NCBI RefSeq assembly: GCF_018860825.1
Contig: NZ_JAHKPZ010000034.1
Coordinates: 186,001 to 250,000 of the forward strand
Direction of reading: 5' to 3'
Length of the DNA stretch: 64,000 nucleotides
Source: Lacinutrix sp. C3R15
GTDB lineage: Bacteria > Bacteroidota > Bacteroidia > Flavobacteriales > Flavobacteriaceae
This document shows, one piece after another, positions 57,445 through 62,575 of the stretch. A program made the translations under genes and the position numbers. The notes under the pieces were generated by a model. That model saw only the letters and a list, made by a program, of their open reading frames with translations, had not been told where the DNA came from and did not search any database. Positions within the stretch are counted from its first letter, which is position 1; the number at the start of each line of letters is the position of its first letter.

Positions 57445-58401
57445 TTATAGTTGCTTAATAAATTCTAAAGCACGCAACTCATTATAGTAATAACCTCCTT
57501 TTTTAACAAACCCTACATGACCACCATAACTAGGCATTTCTAAATGTAGATTTTTATTGTTTTTTGCTTCTATTACAGGATAACATTCTGGAGATAAAAA
57601 CGAATCGTTTAAGGCATTAATAATTAACGTAGGCACTTTTATATTTGGTAAAAACTGCAAACAACTAGATTTAGTATAATAATCTCTTGCATCTGTAAAA
57701 CCATGTGCTTTTGAGGTATAAACCTCATCAAAATCTCTTAAAACTTTAATAGAACTAATGGTTTCTTCAGAAATATTGTTTGGAAATTGAAGTAATTTTG
57801 GTTGTAACTTATCTACCAAATGCTTTTTAAAACGAATAGCATACGGTTTGTTTTTAAGTTTGTGCAGCTCATTAGCAGAACCTTCTAAATAGCAAGGCAC
57901 TGAAATTGAAATTGCTGCCTTAATTTGCTTTGGAAGCACTCTGTCTTCGCCAAGATATTTTAAAGTGATATTACCACCTAAACTAAAGCCATTGATATAT
58001 ATTTCTGAATAGTTTTTATTTTCTAGAATATATTCTATTACCTCATGTAAATCTTCGGTTGCTCCAGAATGATAAGACCTATATTTTAAATTAGGTTCGC
58101 CACTACAACCTCTAAAATTGATACATACAGCATCGACTCCATTTTCATTAAATAATTTGGAAGGTCCAGTAACATAAGGACGTTGCGCATTACCTTCTAA
58201 ACCATGTAAAACAATAATTAGCTTTTCTGATTTCTCTTTAGCATAACTCCAATCTAAGTCCAGAAAATCTCCATCGCTAAGTGTAATACGCTCGCGTTTT
58301 TGTTCTAACTTAACTTTTCGAAGAAGTCCAGAATATATGGTTGCTATATTTCCATTTCTAAAAAAAATGGAAGGCTTGTATGTGCTGGTTAGAATTGGCA
58401 T
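57445..58401 (-). CDS. YheT-like alpha/beta hydrolase
   Basis: This 318-aa protein has LIIVLHGLEGNAQRPYVTG near residue 63, NFRGCSGEPN near residue 95, the nucleophile motif GFSLGGNITLKYLG near residue 140 and the catalytic His in YGGHVGFVKKGGYYY near residue 295, typical of the YheT/EMB8 family. Substrate unknown; probably an esterase. Its start overlaps the adenine deaminase stop by 1 base, so it is translationally coupled. Confidence 0.88.
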   Translation of the reverse strand: MPILTSTYKPSIFFRNGNIATIYSGLLRKVKLEQKRERITLSDGDFLDLDWSYAKEKSEKLIIVLHGLEGNAQRPYVTGPSKLFNENGVDAVCINFRGCSGEPNLKYRSYHSGATEDLHEVIEYILENKNYSEIYINGFSLGGNITLKYLGEDRVLPKQIKAAISISVPCYLEGSANELHKLKNKPYAIRFKKHLVDKLQPKLLQFPNNISEETISSIKVLRDFDEVYTSKAHGFTDARDYYTKSSCLQFLPNIKVPTLIINALNDSFLSPECYPVIEAKNNKNLHLEMPSYGGHVGFVKKGGYYYNELRALEFIKQL

Positions 58402-60020
58402 TACACTTCTAAGCTAGTAAATTTAAATTCTTTACCACTAAACAATCCTTTATCGCTTAGTTTTAAATCTGGAATTACTAATAGTGCCATAAAAGATAAG
58501 GTCATATAAGGCGCATGCAATGTGCTTCCTAATTGTTTTGCCATTTTATCTAAAGCTGCATAATCTTTACCAATAGTTTCGCCATCTTGATCACTCATAA
58601 TTCCTGCCACTGGAAGTGCTACTATTTTTTCTTCAGAATTGCTAATAGCACAAATACCTCCTTTGTTTTCAATGATTAAATTTACTGCTTTACAGATAGC
58701 TTCGTCACTAACACCAACAGCAATAATATTGTGCGAATCATGACCAACAGAACTTGCTATAGCACCTTCTTTTAATCCGAAATTTTTTATAAATGCTATT
58801 GCTGGTACGTCGTTATTGTATCTATTTACAACTGTCATTTTTAAGATATCTGTTTCTGTATTCGAAACAAGATTTCCGTTTTCAATGGTTGCTTCTTCCA
58901 TAAGTTCATTAGTTACTAACTGCCCTTCTAAAGCTTCAATAACTCTAATTTTTTCTGCGGAAGAATTAAAACTAAAATCTTCTATTTTTTTCTTTTCGGT
59001 ATTAAAATTATTCAGGTTTTTAAAAGCTACATCTTTAATGTTTACCTTACCAAAATCATACACCAATTCTCCATCAATATAGGTTTGAAGCGTCTTAAAC
59101 TCCTTTAAATCTTCTACTACAATACAATCTGCTGCATCACCAATTTGCAGTAAACCAACGTCCAGATTATAATGTTTTACCGGATTGATACATGCAGCCT
59201 GCAATACTTTAAATACATCTATATTTTTAGCAACTGCTCTTGCACATAATGCATTGATATGCGAAATCATTAAATCGTCTGGATGCTTATCATCACTGCA
59301 AAACATCATGTTTTCAAAATGCTCAGGAAGCAAATCGATTAATGCTTCAAAATTTTTGGCTGCAGAACCTTCACGAATAAGAATTTTCATTCCTTTTTGT
59401 AGTTTCTCTAAACCTTCATCATAGGTAAAACACTCATGATCTGTAGAAATTCCTGCTGCTATATATTTGGTAATATCTGCACCACGAACTCCTGGTGCAT
59501 GACCATCAACGGGTTTATTATTTTGCTTTGCATGAGCTATTTTTTTAAGCACTTCGTCATCATCAAATAAAACGCCTGGATAATTCATCATTTCGGCTAG
59601 ATATTTAATATCTGGATTTTGCATTAGCTTCTTAATGTCTTCAGAATCTATTATAGCTCCTGCAGATTCAAAACTGGTAGCAGGAACGCAACTTGGTGCA
59701 CCAAAATTAAATTTTAGAGGCACTTGTTTTCCGTTTTCAATCATAAACTCCACTCCAGGAACTCCTAATACATTTGCTATTTCGTGCGGATCACTAACAG
59801 TTGCAACTGTACCATGTTGTACAGCTAATTTTGCAAATTCACTTGGCACCAACATAGAACTTTCTATATGTATATGTGCATCTACAAAACCAGGAAGAAT
59901 ATAATGGTTACTAGTAGTATCTTTTTCTACTATAGATGCAATTTTACCATTTGCTATGGTAACTTCTCCTTTATAGATTCTTTTGTTTACAATATCTACT
60001 ATGTTTCCTTGTATTTTCAT
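58401..60020 (-). CDS. ade: Adenine deaminase
   Basis: The 539-aa amidohydrolase converts adenine to hypoxanthine and ammonia. It shows [16 protein letters not shown] near residue 45 (metal-binding HxH), [15 protein letters not shown] near residue 95, [15 protein letters not shown] near residue 173, [10 protein letters not shown] and [11 protein letters not shown] near residue 240. The C-terminal domain has [18 protein letters not shown], typical of bacterial Ade rather than the adenosine-deaminase-like enzymes. It is first in a two-gene operon with the YheT-like hydrolase. Confidence 0.93.
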
Positions 60021-60173: not shown

Positions 60174-61415
60174 CTATTCTCTTTTTTCATATTCGCGAAG
60201 AATTGCTTTAACAATTAAAGCTTGACTAATTGTTTTTTCTTTTGCTTTAATCATTTTTAAAACTGCAAACTGTAATGCATTACTAATCTCTGCACCACTG
60301 AGTTCGTATTTTTCAGAAAGCAATTCTAGGTTAACTTCAGGGTTTAGTTTTATTTTTTTTGGAATAGCGTTTTGCCATAGCTTGTATCTTTCGGTTGCAT
60401 TTGGCAAAAAGAATGGTACTTTTTCTTGAAATTTTCTACTAATATGTGGTTGTAGCGTATCTTTCTGTACTGAAAAAATAACAATTCCATTAAAACTTTC
60501 AAGAATACTTAATAAGTATGAAACTTCTAAATTTGCATAACTATCGTGTGCATCACTTATCTCTGTTCTTTTACCAAATAACGCATCGGCTTCATCAAAA
60601 AACAAAATACTATTTGATTTTTGAGCAAATTGAAGCAGTGTTAACAATTTTTTTTCTGTTTCACCAATATATTTTGAAATCAAGCTTGCCAAGACAACTC
60701 TATGTACATTTTTGTTAGTTTTCTGTCCTATCAAAGTTGCTGTTAGTGTTTTTCCTGTGCCAGGAGGACCATGAAATAACACCAAATAACTTGGGTTCAC
60801 TTTTTTTGATATTCCCCAAGTATTAAAAAGTGTAGCGCTATATGTTAACCAATCTAAAACATTTTCTATAGCTTCATTTGTTGCATTGTTTAAAACTAAA
60901 TCATCCCAATGCCATTCAGTAGTTATAACTTCTGCATTTTTAATTTTACTTATAATATTAGAAAACGTTGCACTAATTTCTATTCGTAAAGGGTCTGCAT
61001 TGGGTTTAAATAAAGTATAGTGTAAATCTAAATTTTCAAGAATTCCGTGAAACTCTAAAGTGTCTCCCCATTTAATTTTTAAAAACCTAGTATGCTTTTC
61101 TGTATCTTTTTTTTCATATACAGTATTCATAAAAATAGATAACTGCTCTTTAACATCGTGATTTTTGGAGTTGTATTTATAACCAGCAATGGTATTGGTA
61201 CCATCTAAAATAAAATCTAATTTTAATATTTCTGGATCTGCTACAACCTTTGTTATGGGTTTTATGTTGCTAGTAGTTAATTTATAATTTTGAGAGAAAC
61301 TTTTAGGGTTTACTGGTAATACAATGGGGTTAGTTTGTAATTTAGCCAAGCTAGAAAAGCTTGCATCTGTATAAGCATATATTAAAATTTTAATCAATTT
61401 TTCTGTTGTTGCCAT
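60174..61415 (-). CDS. Fusion of CIS-tube-adaptor-like domain with eCIS-type AAA+ ATPase
   Basis: This 413-aa protein joins two parts usually separate in contractile injection systems. Residues about 5-155 resemble the CIS tube/LysM-adaptor domain (Afp7/Pvc7 N-terminus): LIYAYTDASFSS, the NPKSFSQNYK segment, LDFILDGTNTIAG and FLKIKWGDTLEFHGILENLD then LFKPNADPLR. Residues about 175-413 are an AAA+ domain of the Afp15/Pvc15 kind with Walker A GPPGTGKT (216-223), Walker B LFFDEAD (Asp274, Glu275), and a C-terminal helical lid. The usual sensor-1 Asn (LATN) reads FSVQ (Gln317) and the Arg-finger FLRRF reads ISRKF (Arg327, Lys328). It follows the tube genes by 48 bp. The domain assignment of the N-terminus is from pattern memory, not a search. 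Confidence 0.72.
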   Translation of the reverse strand: MATTEKLIKILIYAYTDASFSSLAKLQTNPIVLPVNPKSFSQNYKLTTSNIKPITKVVADPEILKLDFILDGTNTIAGYKYNSKNHDVKEQLSIFMNTVYEKKDTEKHTRFLKIKWGDTLEFHGILENLDLHYTLFKPNADPLRIEISATFSNIISKIKNAEVITTEWHWDDLVLNNATNEAIENVLDWLTYSATLFNTWGISKKVNPSYLVLFHGPPGTGKTLTATLIGQKTNKNVHRVVLASLISKYIGETEKKLLTLLQFAQKSNSILFFDEADALFGKRTEISDAHDSYANLEVSYLLSILESFNGIVIFSVQKDTLQPHISRKFQEKVPFFLPNATERYKLWQNAIPKKIKLNPEVNLELLSEKYELSGAEISNALQFAVLKMIKAKEKTISQALIVKAILREYEKRE

Positions 61416-61463
61416 AATTTCATTTTTAAAATATTTTTATGTAAAATCATTTTATAGCAAGCA

Positions 61464-61919
61464 TTAAACAAGCTGAAAGTAATTATATTTTAAAACTAAG
61501 GTTTCTATAAGAATTTCTCCTTTTTCGGCATCTAGCTTACCTATTTCCCAACGCATTGGCCAAACGTAAGATAAATGCCAACGGAATAAAACTTGATGTT
61601 TATCATCTAAAACATCTATATCTATTCCTTTTATAGGTTGTTTTATAGTGTTCTGAAAAGCATTTTGACACCATTGTAATAACGCTGAATTTTCTTTTTT
61701 AACAACCCCTTTTTTTAATATTATTGGTGTATACCTAATACCTGCAGGAAGCTGATGCACAAATCTATTTTCACCACCTTCTTTTAAAAAAGTATTCTCT
61801 GTATACACGTTTAAACCAGATACAGACTGAAAGCCAATTTGTAAATGCTTTGTTTTAGGCAATCCGATAAAGGAAACATGAAAGTGAAAATTAACTAAGG
61901 GATACACATCTTTTGCCAT
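61464..61919 (-). CDS. Tail tube protein 2, T4 gp19-like (CIS tube)
   Basis: This 151-aa protein has the gp19-like core: PLVNFHFHVSF at the N-terminus, QIGFQSVSGLNVYTENTFLK near residue 27, TPIILKKGVVKKENSALLQW near residue 63, then a beta hairpin ending WPMRWEIGKLDAEKGEILIE near residue 120. It stacks as hexameric rings to form the inner tube in contractile systems. It follows tube protein 1 by 4 bases. Such second tube paralogues often form the first baseplate-proximal ring. Confidence 0.82.
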   Translation of the reverse strand: MAKDVYPLVNFHFHVSFIGLPKTKHLQIGFQSVSGLNVYTENTFLKEGGENRFVHQLPAGIRYTPIILKKGVVKKENSALLQWCQNAFQNTIKQPIKGIDIDVLDDKHQVLFRWHLSYVWPMRWEIGKLDAEKGEILIETLVLKYNYFQLV

Positions 61920-61923
61920 GGTA

Positions 61924-62391
61924 TTATTTTGCTTCTAAAATGGTTATACCTTCATGTGTTAAGACCATTGTTTCAATAGCAATTTCATTACTATCTGCTT
62001 TTAAACTTGCAGATTGAATTTTTCTTGGCCAAGCGTTATTTAATACCCAGGTTATTACTGGAACATGATTTTCATTAAGCAGTTTAATAGTTACCGTTCT
62101 TCTATACATAGAACCGGTTTCATTTCCTTCTTGAAAAAAATAGGTTTTTTTCCATTCTTTAAAAAAGTCAAAATCGCCTAAATAGGTTCCTCTTTTTAAG
62201 GTTACATCACTATACTTTGTAAGTCCTGGTTGTTTTGTTTTATAATAACTTTTACTGTTTCCAGAACGATATTCAATAACTTCTGTTTCAAAATCTAATC
62301 CACTAACTTCAGAAAATTCTATTCTAAAACTATCTCCCCATTCTACAGAGAAATGGAATTTTACTAAAGGGTAATCTGCAACTGTAGCCAT
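61924..62391 (-). CDS. Tail tube protein 1, T4 gp19-like (CIS tube)
   Basis: I start at 62391 (MATVADYPLVKFHF, 155 aa); an ATG at 62430 adds 13 hydrophobic residues not seen in the family. The tube signature is clear: RIEFSEVSGLDFETEVIEYR near residue 22, YSDVTLKRGTYLGDFDFFKE near residue 58 and NNAWPRKIQSASLKADSNEI near residue 122. It is the leading gene of a three-gene minus-strand operon with a second tube protein and the fused ATPase. No sheath gene accompanies it. Confidence 0.86.
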   Translation of the reverse strand: MATVADYPLVKFHFSVEWGDSFRIEFSEVSGLDFETEVIEYRSGNSKSYYKTKQPGLTKYSDVTLKRGTYLGDFDFFKEWKKTYFFQEGNETGSMYRRTVTIKLLNENHVPVITWVLNNAWPRKIQSASLKADSNEIAIETMVLTHEGITILEAK

Positions 62392-62549
62392 AACTTTATA
62401 TTTAAAATCAACAAACCAAAAAAAAAGCATAAAAACCTAAAAACCAGTTTTTTACAAACATAAATATACGTATTTTACTGAAATTCAACACTATGCTTTT
62501 TTATTGATCTTATAATAATTTTTAAAAACTATTAAATATGGTTCAAAAA

Positions 62550-62575
62550 AAAACCTTCCAGAAACGGAAGGTTTT
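62550..62575 (-). terminator. Intrinsic terminator after the dsbD gene
   Basis: Perfect 10-bp stem AAAACCTTCC / GGAAGGTTTT with a 6-base loop. On the minus strand a T-run follows, so the CIS operon upstream promoter must lie between here and 62391. Confidence 0.78.

Follow-up and report, generated by a model that had tools for sequence, protein, structure and literature searches.

A 64,000-nucleotide stretch of the genome of the marine bacterium Lacinutrix sp. C3R15 (contig NZ_JAHKPZ010000034.1, positions 186,001–250,000; hereafter the window) carries a set of three adjacent genes, the trio, encoding two tube proteins of contractile injection systems (CISs) and an in-frame fusion of the tube-initiator barrel of Cis7 with the AAA+ core of the loader ATPase Cis15. 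The existence of the trio is confirmed: its frames are intact, its stated position is exact, and the signal far exceeds chance. In three genomes of the genus it is held under purifying selection. Our preferred, if still tentative, interpretation is that it is a domesticated, selected, and non-contractile derivative of the type of CIS found in two genomes of the same family (G077 and G080). The data suggest that the leftover tube does a new job.

Architecture of the trio

The three genes are separated by gaps of 4 bp and 48 bp (Table 1), and the two gp19-like tube genes followed by a fused ATPase gene, as described in the original prediction, were all borne out in coordinates and domains. The "fused ATPase" can now be specified as a Cis7 tube-initiator barrel joined to a Cis15 AAA+ core, with PF19266 (CIS_tube) matching at residues 6–160 (E = 9.5e-30) and PF00004 (AAA) at residues 212–334 (E = 1.4e-22). 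The best sequence match of tube 1 in the PDB is All3324 of Anabaena (chain 7b5h_AN; E = 1.1e-49), which the available text of PMC8894136 names Cis1. Tube 2 was placed as Cis5, because it is closest to 7aeb_Y of the AlgoCIS entry (E = 4.6e-29), with All3323 as the second match and Afp5 and Pvc5 among the others. In Foldseek, the six top PDB matches of the fusion barrel all belong to CIS baseplate entries, those of Anabaena, Algoriphagus, the Photorhabdus virulence cassette (PVC), and the antifeeding prophage (AFP); the matched chains are presumably Cis7. With tube 1 Cis1-like, tube 2 Cis5-like, and the fusion composed of Cis7 and the Cis15 core, the trio thus encodes the inner-tube ring types together with a loader core, and contains the inner tube protein expected of an extracellular CIS (eCIS).

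Of the features that define Cis7, the CIS_tube β-barrel is present, and the baseplate-binding C-terminal LysM domain is replaced by the AAA+ core. Because the LysM domain of Cis7 contacts baseplate proteins in solved systems, binding Cis9 and Cis12 in the Anabaena system (PMC8894136, available text) and tying the tube to the wedges (PMC8894135, available text), its loss fits the loss of the baseplate. The closest solved structures, AlgoCIS of Algoriphagus machipongonensis and the thylakoid-anchored CIS of Anabaena, have counterparts of Cis1, Cis5, and the Cis7 barrel, but according to the accessible parts of these reports they differ from the trio in having a LysM domain of their own on Cis7, the spike, Cis9, Cis11/12, the sheath, and caps; a Cis7 fused to an AAA+ core is not mentioned in those parts (PMC8894135, PMC8894136).

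Table 1. Positions of the trio, its sequence elements, and the second CIS loci of the genus (window positions unless a genome and contig are given)
Feature	Position	Strand	Length or residues	Basis or remark
Tube 1, Cis1/Alg1/Pvc1-like inner tube subunit	61924–62391	minus	155 aa	PF06841, E = 2.4e-39 (value for the open reading frame with its upstream alternative start)
Tube 2, Cis5/Alg5/Pvc5-like tube initiator ring	61464–61919	minus	151 aa	PF06841, E = 6.8e-34
Fusion of Cis7 barrel and Cis15 AAA+ core	60174–61415	minus	413 aa	PF19266 and PF00004
Cis7 (CIS_tube) β-barrel part of the fusion	60945–61415	minus	aa 1–157	Foldseek and alignment with stand-alone Cis7; LysM tail missing
Cis15 AAA+ core of the fusion	60183–60935	minus	aa 161–411	Alignment with stand-alone Cis15 and tree; N-terminal ~180 aa of Cis15 missing
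Walker A, GPPGTGKT	60747–60770	minus	aa 216–223	Alignment; intact
Walker B, LFFDEAD	60585–60605	minus	aa 271–277	Alignment; intact
Second region of homology	60426–60479	minus	aa 313–330	Alignment; sensor-1 Asn missing, Arg-finger pair changed
Conserved upstream element, candidate promoter region of the trio	62450–62480	minus		Alignment of G000, G168, and G251
Terminator-like hairpin between dsbD and tube 1	62550–62575	minus		Recurs in G251
Second CIS locus, G249 (L104)	C12:4717–10230
Second CIS locus, G168 (L065)	C1:622751–628263
Second CIS locus, G253 (L087)	C18:7702–18319
Second CIS locus, G252 (L084)	C1:42460–53407

The AAA+ core of the fusion

In common with the Pvc15/Cis15 loader ATPases, the AAA+ core of the fusion has Walker A, the DEAD sequence of Walker B, and the KY pore loop. 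It differs from them in carrying the Cis7 barrel in place of the N-terminal part and in lacking or altering the sensor-1 Asn and the Arg fingers, assigned in Pvc15 to N597 and R608/R609 (PMC11495950, accessible portion). All three fusions, those of the window's own genome (G000) and of its congeners G168 and G251, have lost or altered these residues. All 32 stand-alone Cis15 copies read have them; this set consists of the copies whose loci were fetched and is not a random sample (35 loci, from which two fusion loci and L142, which repeats L012, were subtracted; the window supplies the third fusion). The Arg pair RR has become RK in G000, QK in G168, and QR in G251. Judging from these motifs, ATP binding is probably kept and hydrolysis impaired.

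In the tree of the ATPase cores, the three fusions form a single clade (support, 100/100) beside the ATPases of G077 and G080, the five-row group being supported at 95/94. The long stem leading to the fusion clade (1.04 changes per column), followed by shorter branches inside it, suggests in our reading a change of role at the fusion event and constraint thereafter. The tree sets the fusions apart from the ATPases found at the genus's other CIS locus (the second locus, described below), and a derivation of the AAA+ part from there was therefore rejected.

Origin from a full cluster

The CIS clusters of G077 and G080 are the closest full-cluster relatives of the trio parts, with identities of 76–77% for tube 1, 50% for tube 2 (G077), 48–53% for the Cis7 barrel, and 52–53% for the ATPase core. 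The cluster of G077 runs in the order of sheath, two other genes, tube 1, tube 2, Cis7, spike, PAAR, gp25, large baseplate proteins, tape measure, further genes, and Cis15. Cis7 (235 aa, with LysM) and Cis15 (439 aa) are thus separate there, with the spike, gp25, and wedge genes between them and the sheath alongside, unlike in the trio; Cis15 follows Cis7 by ~31 kb in G077 and ~25 kb in G080 (Cis15 length in both genomes, 437–439 aa). The trio corresponds to tube 1, tube 2, residues 1–163 of Cis7, and residues 182–433 of Cis15 of G077, and one internal deletion could therefore have joined Cis7 to Cis15. The joint coincides with domain borders: both folded cores are retained, Cis7 having lost its LysM tail and Cis15 its N-terminal part.

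Distribution and selection

Seven genomes of the genus were compared, including G000 (3.61 Mb, 99.98% complete), whose place in the genus rests on a kinship label. The trio occupies the same site with equal protein lengths (155, 151, and 413 aa) in three of them, G000, G168, and G251 (84% complete, its contigs ending near both CIS loci); the site in G249, G250, G252, and G253 has neither the trio nor a remnant that we could find. In none of the seven does a complete CIS cluster lie beside the site in the DNA read (~18–20 kb per genome, and a 6-kb contig only in G251), the nearby gp25- and spike-like genes of G252 and G253 belonging to a type VI secretion system (T6SS).

Beyond the genus, the full fusion seems to be absent from the family and order samples searched: it was found in G000 and G168 only, among the matches listed (strongest first), in the 249-genome family sample (up to seven candidates scored per genome), and 40 genomes of the 395-genome order sample (up to four candidates scored per genome) matched at 1e-30, with a whole-length match in G000 only. 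A contig search with an alignment query returned 20 loci, one of them (L122, a G251 record) with the full fusion, and the single-protein query found nothing. An apparent second fusion in G072 (match at residues 102–412) turned out to be an ordinary stand-alone Cis15. Neither a phage nor a plasmid origin was retained: 59 of 50,697 phage records and 1558 of 72,556 plasmid records matched in part, and none covered at least 80% of the query. A word search of titles and abstract starts among open-licence PMC articles gave, in the articles listed, no Cis7–Cis15 fusion, tube-only CIS, or Oceanihabitans CIS.

Pairwise ratios of nonsynonymous to synonymous substitution (dN/dS) by the Nei–Gojobori method (NG86), dS exceeding 1 for some of the trio pairs, are 0.10–0.17 for tube 1, 0.18–0.19 for tube 2, and 0.19–0.21 for the fusion among G000, G168, and G251, and both parts of the fusion are constrained when taken separately (Cis7 part, 0.19–0.27; AAA+ part, 0.16–0.22). 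No bootstrap replicate reached 1 in any comparison of the trio. The adjacent adenine deaminase gene is more constrained (0.05–0.09). Synonymous divergence of the trio lies within the range of this flank (G168–G251, 0.29–0.37 versus 0.33; G000–G168, 0.60–1.20 versus 0.78), as expected for vertical descent. The 719 codons of the trio show no indel and no stop in the three genomes, whereas random substitution simulated at a rate of 0.15 per site and lineage produces ~15 stops, with none of 500 runs stop-free. Upstream of tube 1, a stretch conserved in the same three genomes constitutes a candidate promoter region, with no match to the sigma-70 consensus at positions 62450–62480.

Pseudogene decay was accordingly rejected by dN/dS, bootstrap, and simulation, in line with the earlier argument from intact frames, and selection on all three genes is purifying rather than relaxed. 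A decaying relic with no present function, already disfavored, is for the same reasons an improbable account: most of the CIS is gone, the second locus is shrinking too, four of the seven genomes are without the trio, and the AAA+ core has lost catalytic residues, but the intact frames, equal lengths, low dN/dS (0.10–0.21), constraint on both fusion parts, and conserved upstream element all speak against it. With no complete CIS found beside the site and no relaxed selection, the earlier interpretation as a whole is supported in part.

A possible non-contractile assembly

If the trio descends from a CIS of the G077/G080 type, the loss of the ~25–31 kb that separated the Cis7 barrel from the Cis15 core, including the spike, PAAR, gp25, wedge, and tape-measure genes, would have fused the two, and the gene order implies that the remaining cluster was lost as well. 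Six fusion subunits might then form a Cis7 ring bearing a coaxial AAA+ ring, on which Cis5 and then Cis1 rings would stack as in a normal tube to give a short tube or a stack of rings, with a nucleotide-binding collar sitting where the contacts of spike and LysM with the baseplate used to be. From the preserved Walker A and B motifs and pore loop, together with the missing or changed sensor-1 Asn and Arg fingers, ATP binding by the collar is predicted, with poor hydrolysis or none; the collar could act as a scaffold, a gate, or a cargo-holding ring rather than as a contracting or fast-unfolding machine. Stand-alone Cis15 loaders bring signal-tagged cargo into the tube. The more specific proposal of a CIS turned into a non-contractile nanotube, in which Cis1 and Cis5 rings stand on a hexameric Cis7–AAA+ collar that binds ATP without normal turnover and form an intracellular gated container or conduit for proteins with no spike, baseplate, or sheath, is possible but rather doubtful.

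Several points weigh against the domesticated, non-contractile derivative. The assembly of the trio is a prediction from its sequence, and the AlphaFold model of the fusion (mean predicted local distance difference test score (pLDDT), 52) is confident for parts of the barrel only (residues 11–30 and 61–150, pLDDT 65–88), so that the fused geometry is likewise only predicted; the AAA+ part of this whole-fusion model is unreliable, having only two aligned rows in that region. The NCBIfam CIS1 and CIS5 models fail to tell tube 1 from tube 2, both tubes scoring below the cut-off, tube 1 far below, and both higher with CIS5. Motif loss does not settle activity, since Walker A/B mutations in PVC did not abolish the unfolding of tagged cargo (PMC11495950, accessible portion). 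Four of the seven genomes do without the trio, the baseplate genes could have disappeared after the trio carriers diverged from their common ancestor, so that some of the selection measured would be older than this loss, and a sheath under similar constraint persists in G000 as a possible partner of the trio.

Were this reading true, CIS parts could be reused without contraction, as a selected tube and initiator module that has neither baseplate nor spike and whose initiator is joined to a loader core, and the three genes would offer a tractable system for tube nucleation and for the relation of the Cis15 core to the tube. The trio also shows that a genome with no complete CIS cluster can still keep CIS proteins under selection. 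The trio comprises three genes, compared with the at least ten core genes in one operon required by the survey filter of PMC8213781 (available text), and surveys of that design would miss such a module. The orphan hcp/vgrG/PAAR islands of T6SSs are alike in that a tube gene is kept apart from the full machine (PMC13098142, in its accessible part); the trio differs in its fused initiator and AAA+ core and in a genome with no detected spike or full machine.

The second CIS locus and a split contractile system

The main rival is a split but still contractile system, in which the trio supplies tube and ATPase functions to the CIS parts at a second locus of the genus; it is weaker in G000 and stronger in G168, and we consider it unlikely overall. 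A sheath gene is present in six of the seven genomes, and the second locus is flanked by YqeY and an M90 peptidase in G000, G168, G249, and G252; the contig of G253 (ending just past the sheath) shows the M90 side only, and that of G251 (ending after PAAR) neither side. A sheath, a spike, PAAR, two tubes, and a free-standing 171-aa gene for the tape-measure C-domain make up the locus in G168 and G249. That of G252 and G253 is larger by an ATPase gene and four others, no tube 2 being found in G252, and the frames are intact in all four genomes. A remnant matching residues 3–35 of the second-locus ATPase lies between PAAR and the tape-measure C-domain gene in G168 (C1:623350–623445, L065) and G249 (C12:5316–5414, L104), and marks the deletion of the ATPase and its neighbors there. 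No gp25, Cis11, Cis12, or Cis7 was found at the second locus of any genome (Cis12 being searched within the fetched stretches), and the genus hence carries baseplate-poor CIS loci; the second locus may itself be a contractile system that has no baseplate. Its constraint is weaker and less even than that of the trio (sheath, dN/dS 0.20–0.39; spike, 0.24–0.33; tube 2, 0.36–0.49; tape-measure domain, 0.31–0.62; tube 1, 0.09–0.88, with high values at very small dS).

In G000 this locus is reduced to the sheath and a 135-aa fragment. Genome-wide, G000 contains two gp19-like genes, one CIS_tube gene, and one sheath gene, the last on another contig (C1:308439–310016, 525 aa) and no less constrained than in the congeners (dN/dS of 0.20–0.24 against them; 0.20–0.39 among the others). 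The genome search found no spike in G000 and no gp25/Cis9 in G000, G168, G251, G249, or G250, the gp25 of G252 and G253 lying in a T6SS. Nor did it find Cis11 in G000, with a query covering 615 aa of a 1281-aa protein that finds all four full-cluster control genomes. Thus a sheath within the cluster, the Afp8-type spike with Afp11 (the core pair in 98.7% of eCIS loci according to the available text of PMC8213781), and gp25/Cis9 are all wanting among the hallmarks of an eCIS. Of the T6SS parts, gp25 and spike were not found in G000 (the membrane complex was not searched for). The alternatives first proposed, a tube-only apparatus or a split locus completed elsewhere, therefore fared differently: tube-only describes the locus correctly, and the split locus is half right, with a sheath on C1 but no match for spike, gp25, or Cis11.

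The 135-aa protein (C1:308004–308411; L003:139–546) precedes the sheath and resembles the C-terminal half of a 269–272-aa protein upstream of the sheath in G251 and G252. It gave no family match over a cut-off, and the 272-aa protein gave none in Pfam or NCBIfam at 0.01; judged by its place, this protein is perhaps a cap adaptor. With dN/dS of 0.42–0.51, the 135-aa protein is less constrained than the sheath or the trio.

In favor of the split system, the second locus holds the sheath in G000, under the constraint given above, and tubes, spike, PAAR, and the tape-measure C-domain in relatives; in G168, which has the trio, it is without an intact ATPase or Cis7. In G000, however, the spike and the baseplate components gp25 and Cis11 are not found, which weakens it there, and PVC particles need baseplate, spike, and tube genes, single deletions of which abolish the particles (PMC12210884, available text). 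Moreover, the AAA+ part of the trio descends from a different CIS type, as seen in the tree, and the two loci do not co-occur as expected of partners: G249 has a second locus with no ATPase and no trio, and G252 and G253 have an ATPase of their own and no trio. Dependence of the trio on the second locus is consequently not supported, although the trio could in principle serve that of G168 and G251.

Very improbable is an interference device, whose tube and initiator subunits would co-assemble with and poison the tails of incoming contractile phages or rival CISs: the Cis7 barrel is kept without a baseplate, presence is patchy (three of seven), and the AAA+ part matches PADLOC IetA models (best, 4.4e-33) and NCBIfam IteA (93.9 of 510 bits, far below the cut-off), but these are general AAA+ matches that its AAA+ relatives share, both tubes and the three neighboring proteins scanned match no PADLOC model, so that no defense partner is seen, tube 1 is the most conserved part rather than fast-evolving, and direct support is absent.

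Surroundings of the two loci

The trio is flanked on the same strand by adenine deaminase (58401–60020) and a dsbD-like gene (from 62621 onward), the neighbors named in the original prediction, and no sheath, spike, baseplate, or cap gene adjoins it in the stretch read (C23:240001–260000), again as foreseen. A single terminator-like hairpin was found, between dsbD and tube 1, where shuffled sequences would lead one to expect 1.1; the same hairpin is present in G251, one of its pairs being altered on both sides.

The trio site seems to accept insertions. Large repeat proteins of 1170–1203 aa, presumably of FG-GAP type, stand beside the trio in G168 (C1:3747916–3755243, L039), and similar ones flank adenine deaminase on both sides in G249 (C19:219232–222843 and 224686–228198, L102). 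In G252 and G253, both without the trio, gp25 and VgrG genes lie 14–24 kb from adenine deaminase and belong to a T6SS, not to a CIS (G253:C5:149020–159426, L149; G252:C25:202255–212677, L150), with TssD, VgrG, gp25, TssF, and a weak TssK match, the gene families being checked in G253 only.

At the second locus, the M90 peptidases of G252 (C1:41540–42424) and G253 (C18:6775–7659) are 47–49% identical to those of G000, G168, or G249. In the genomes read, YqeY shares 95–97% identity with its G000 counterpart, and FtsZ is 85–99% identical between genomes, which suggests replacement of the divergent M90 gene by recombination in G252 and G253. In G251, a protein of the phage-integrase family (C287:1934–3379, L105) is encoded upstream of the second locus, where the usual YqeY neighbor was not seen.

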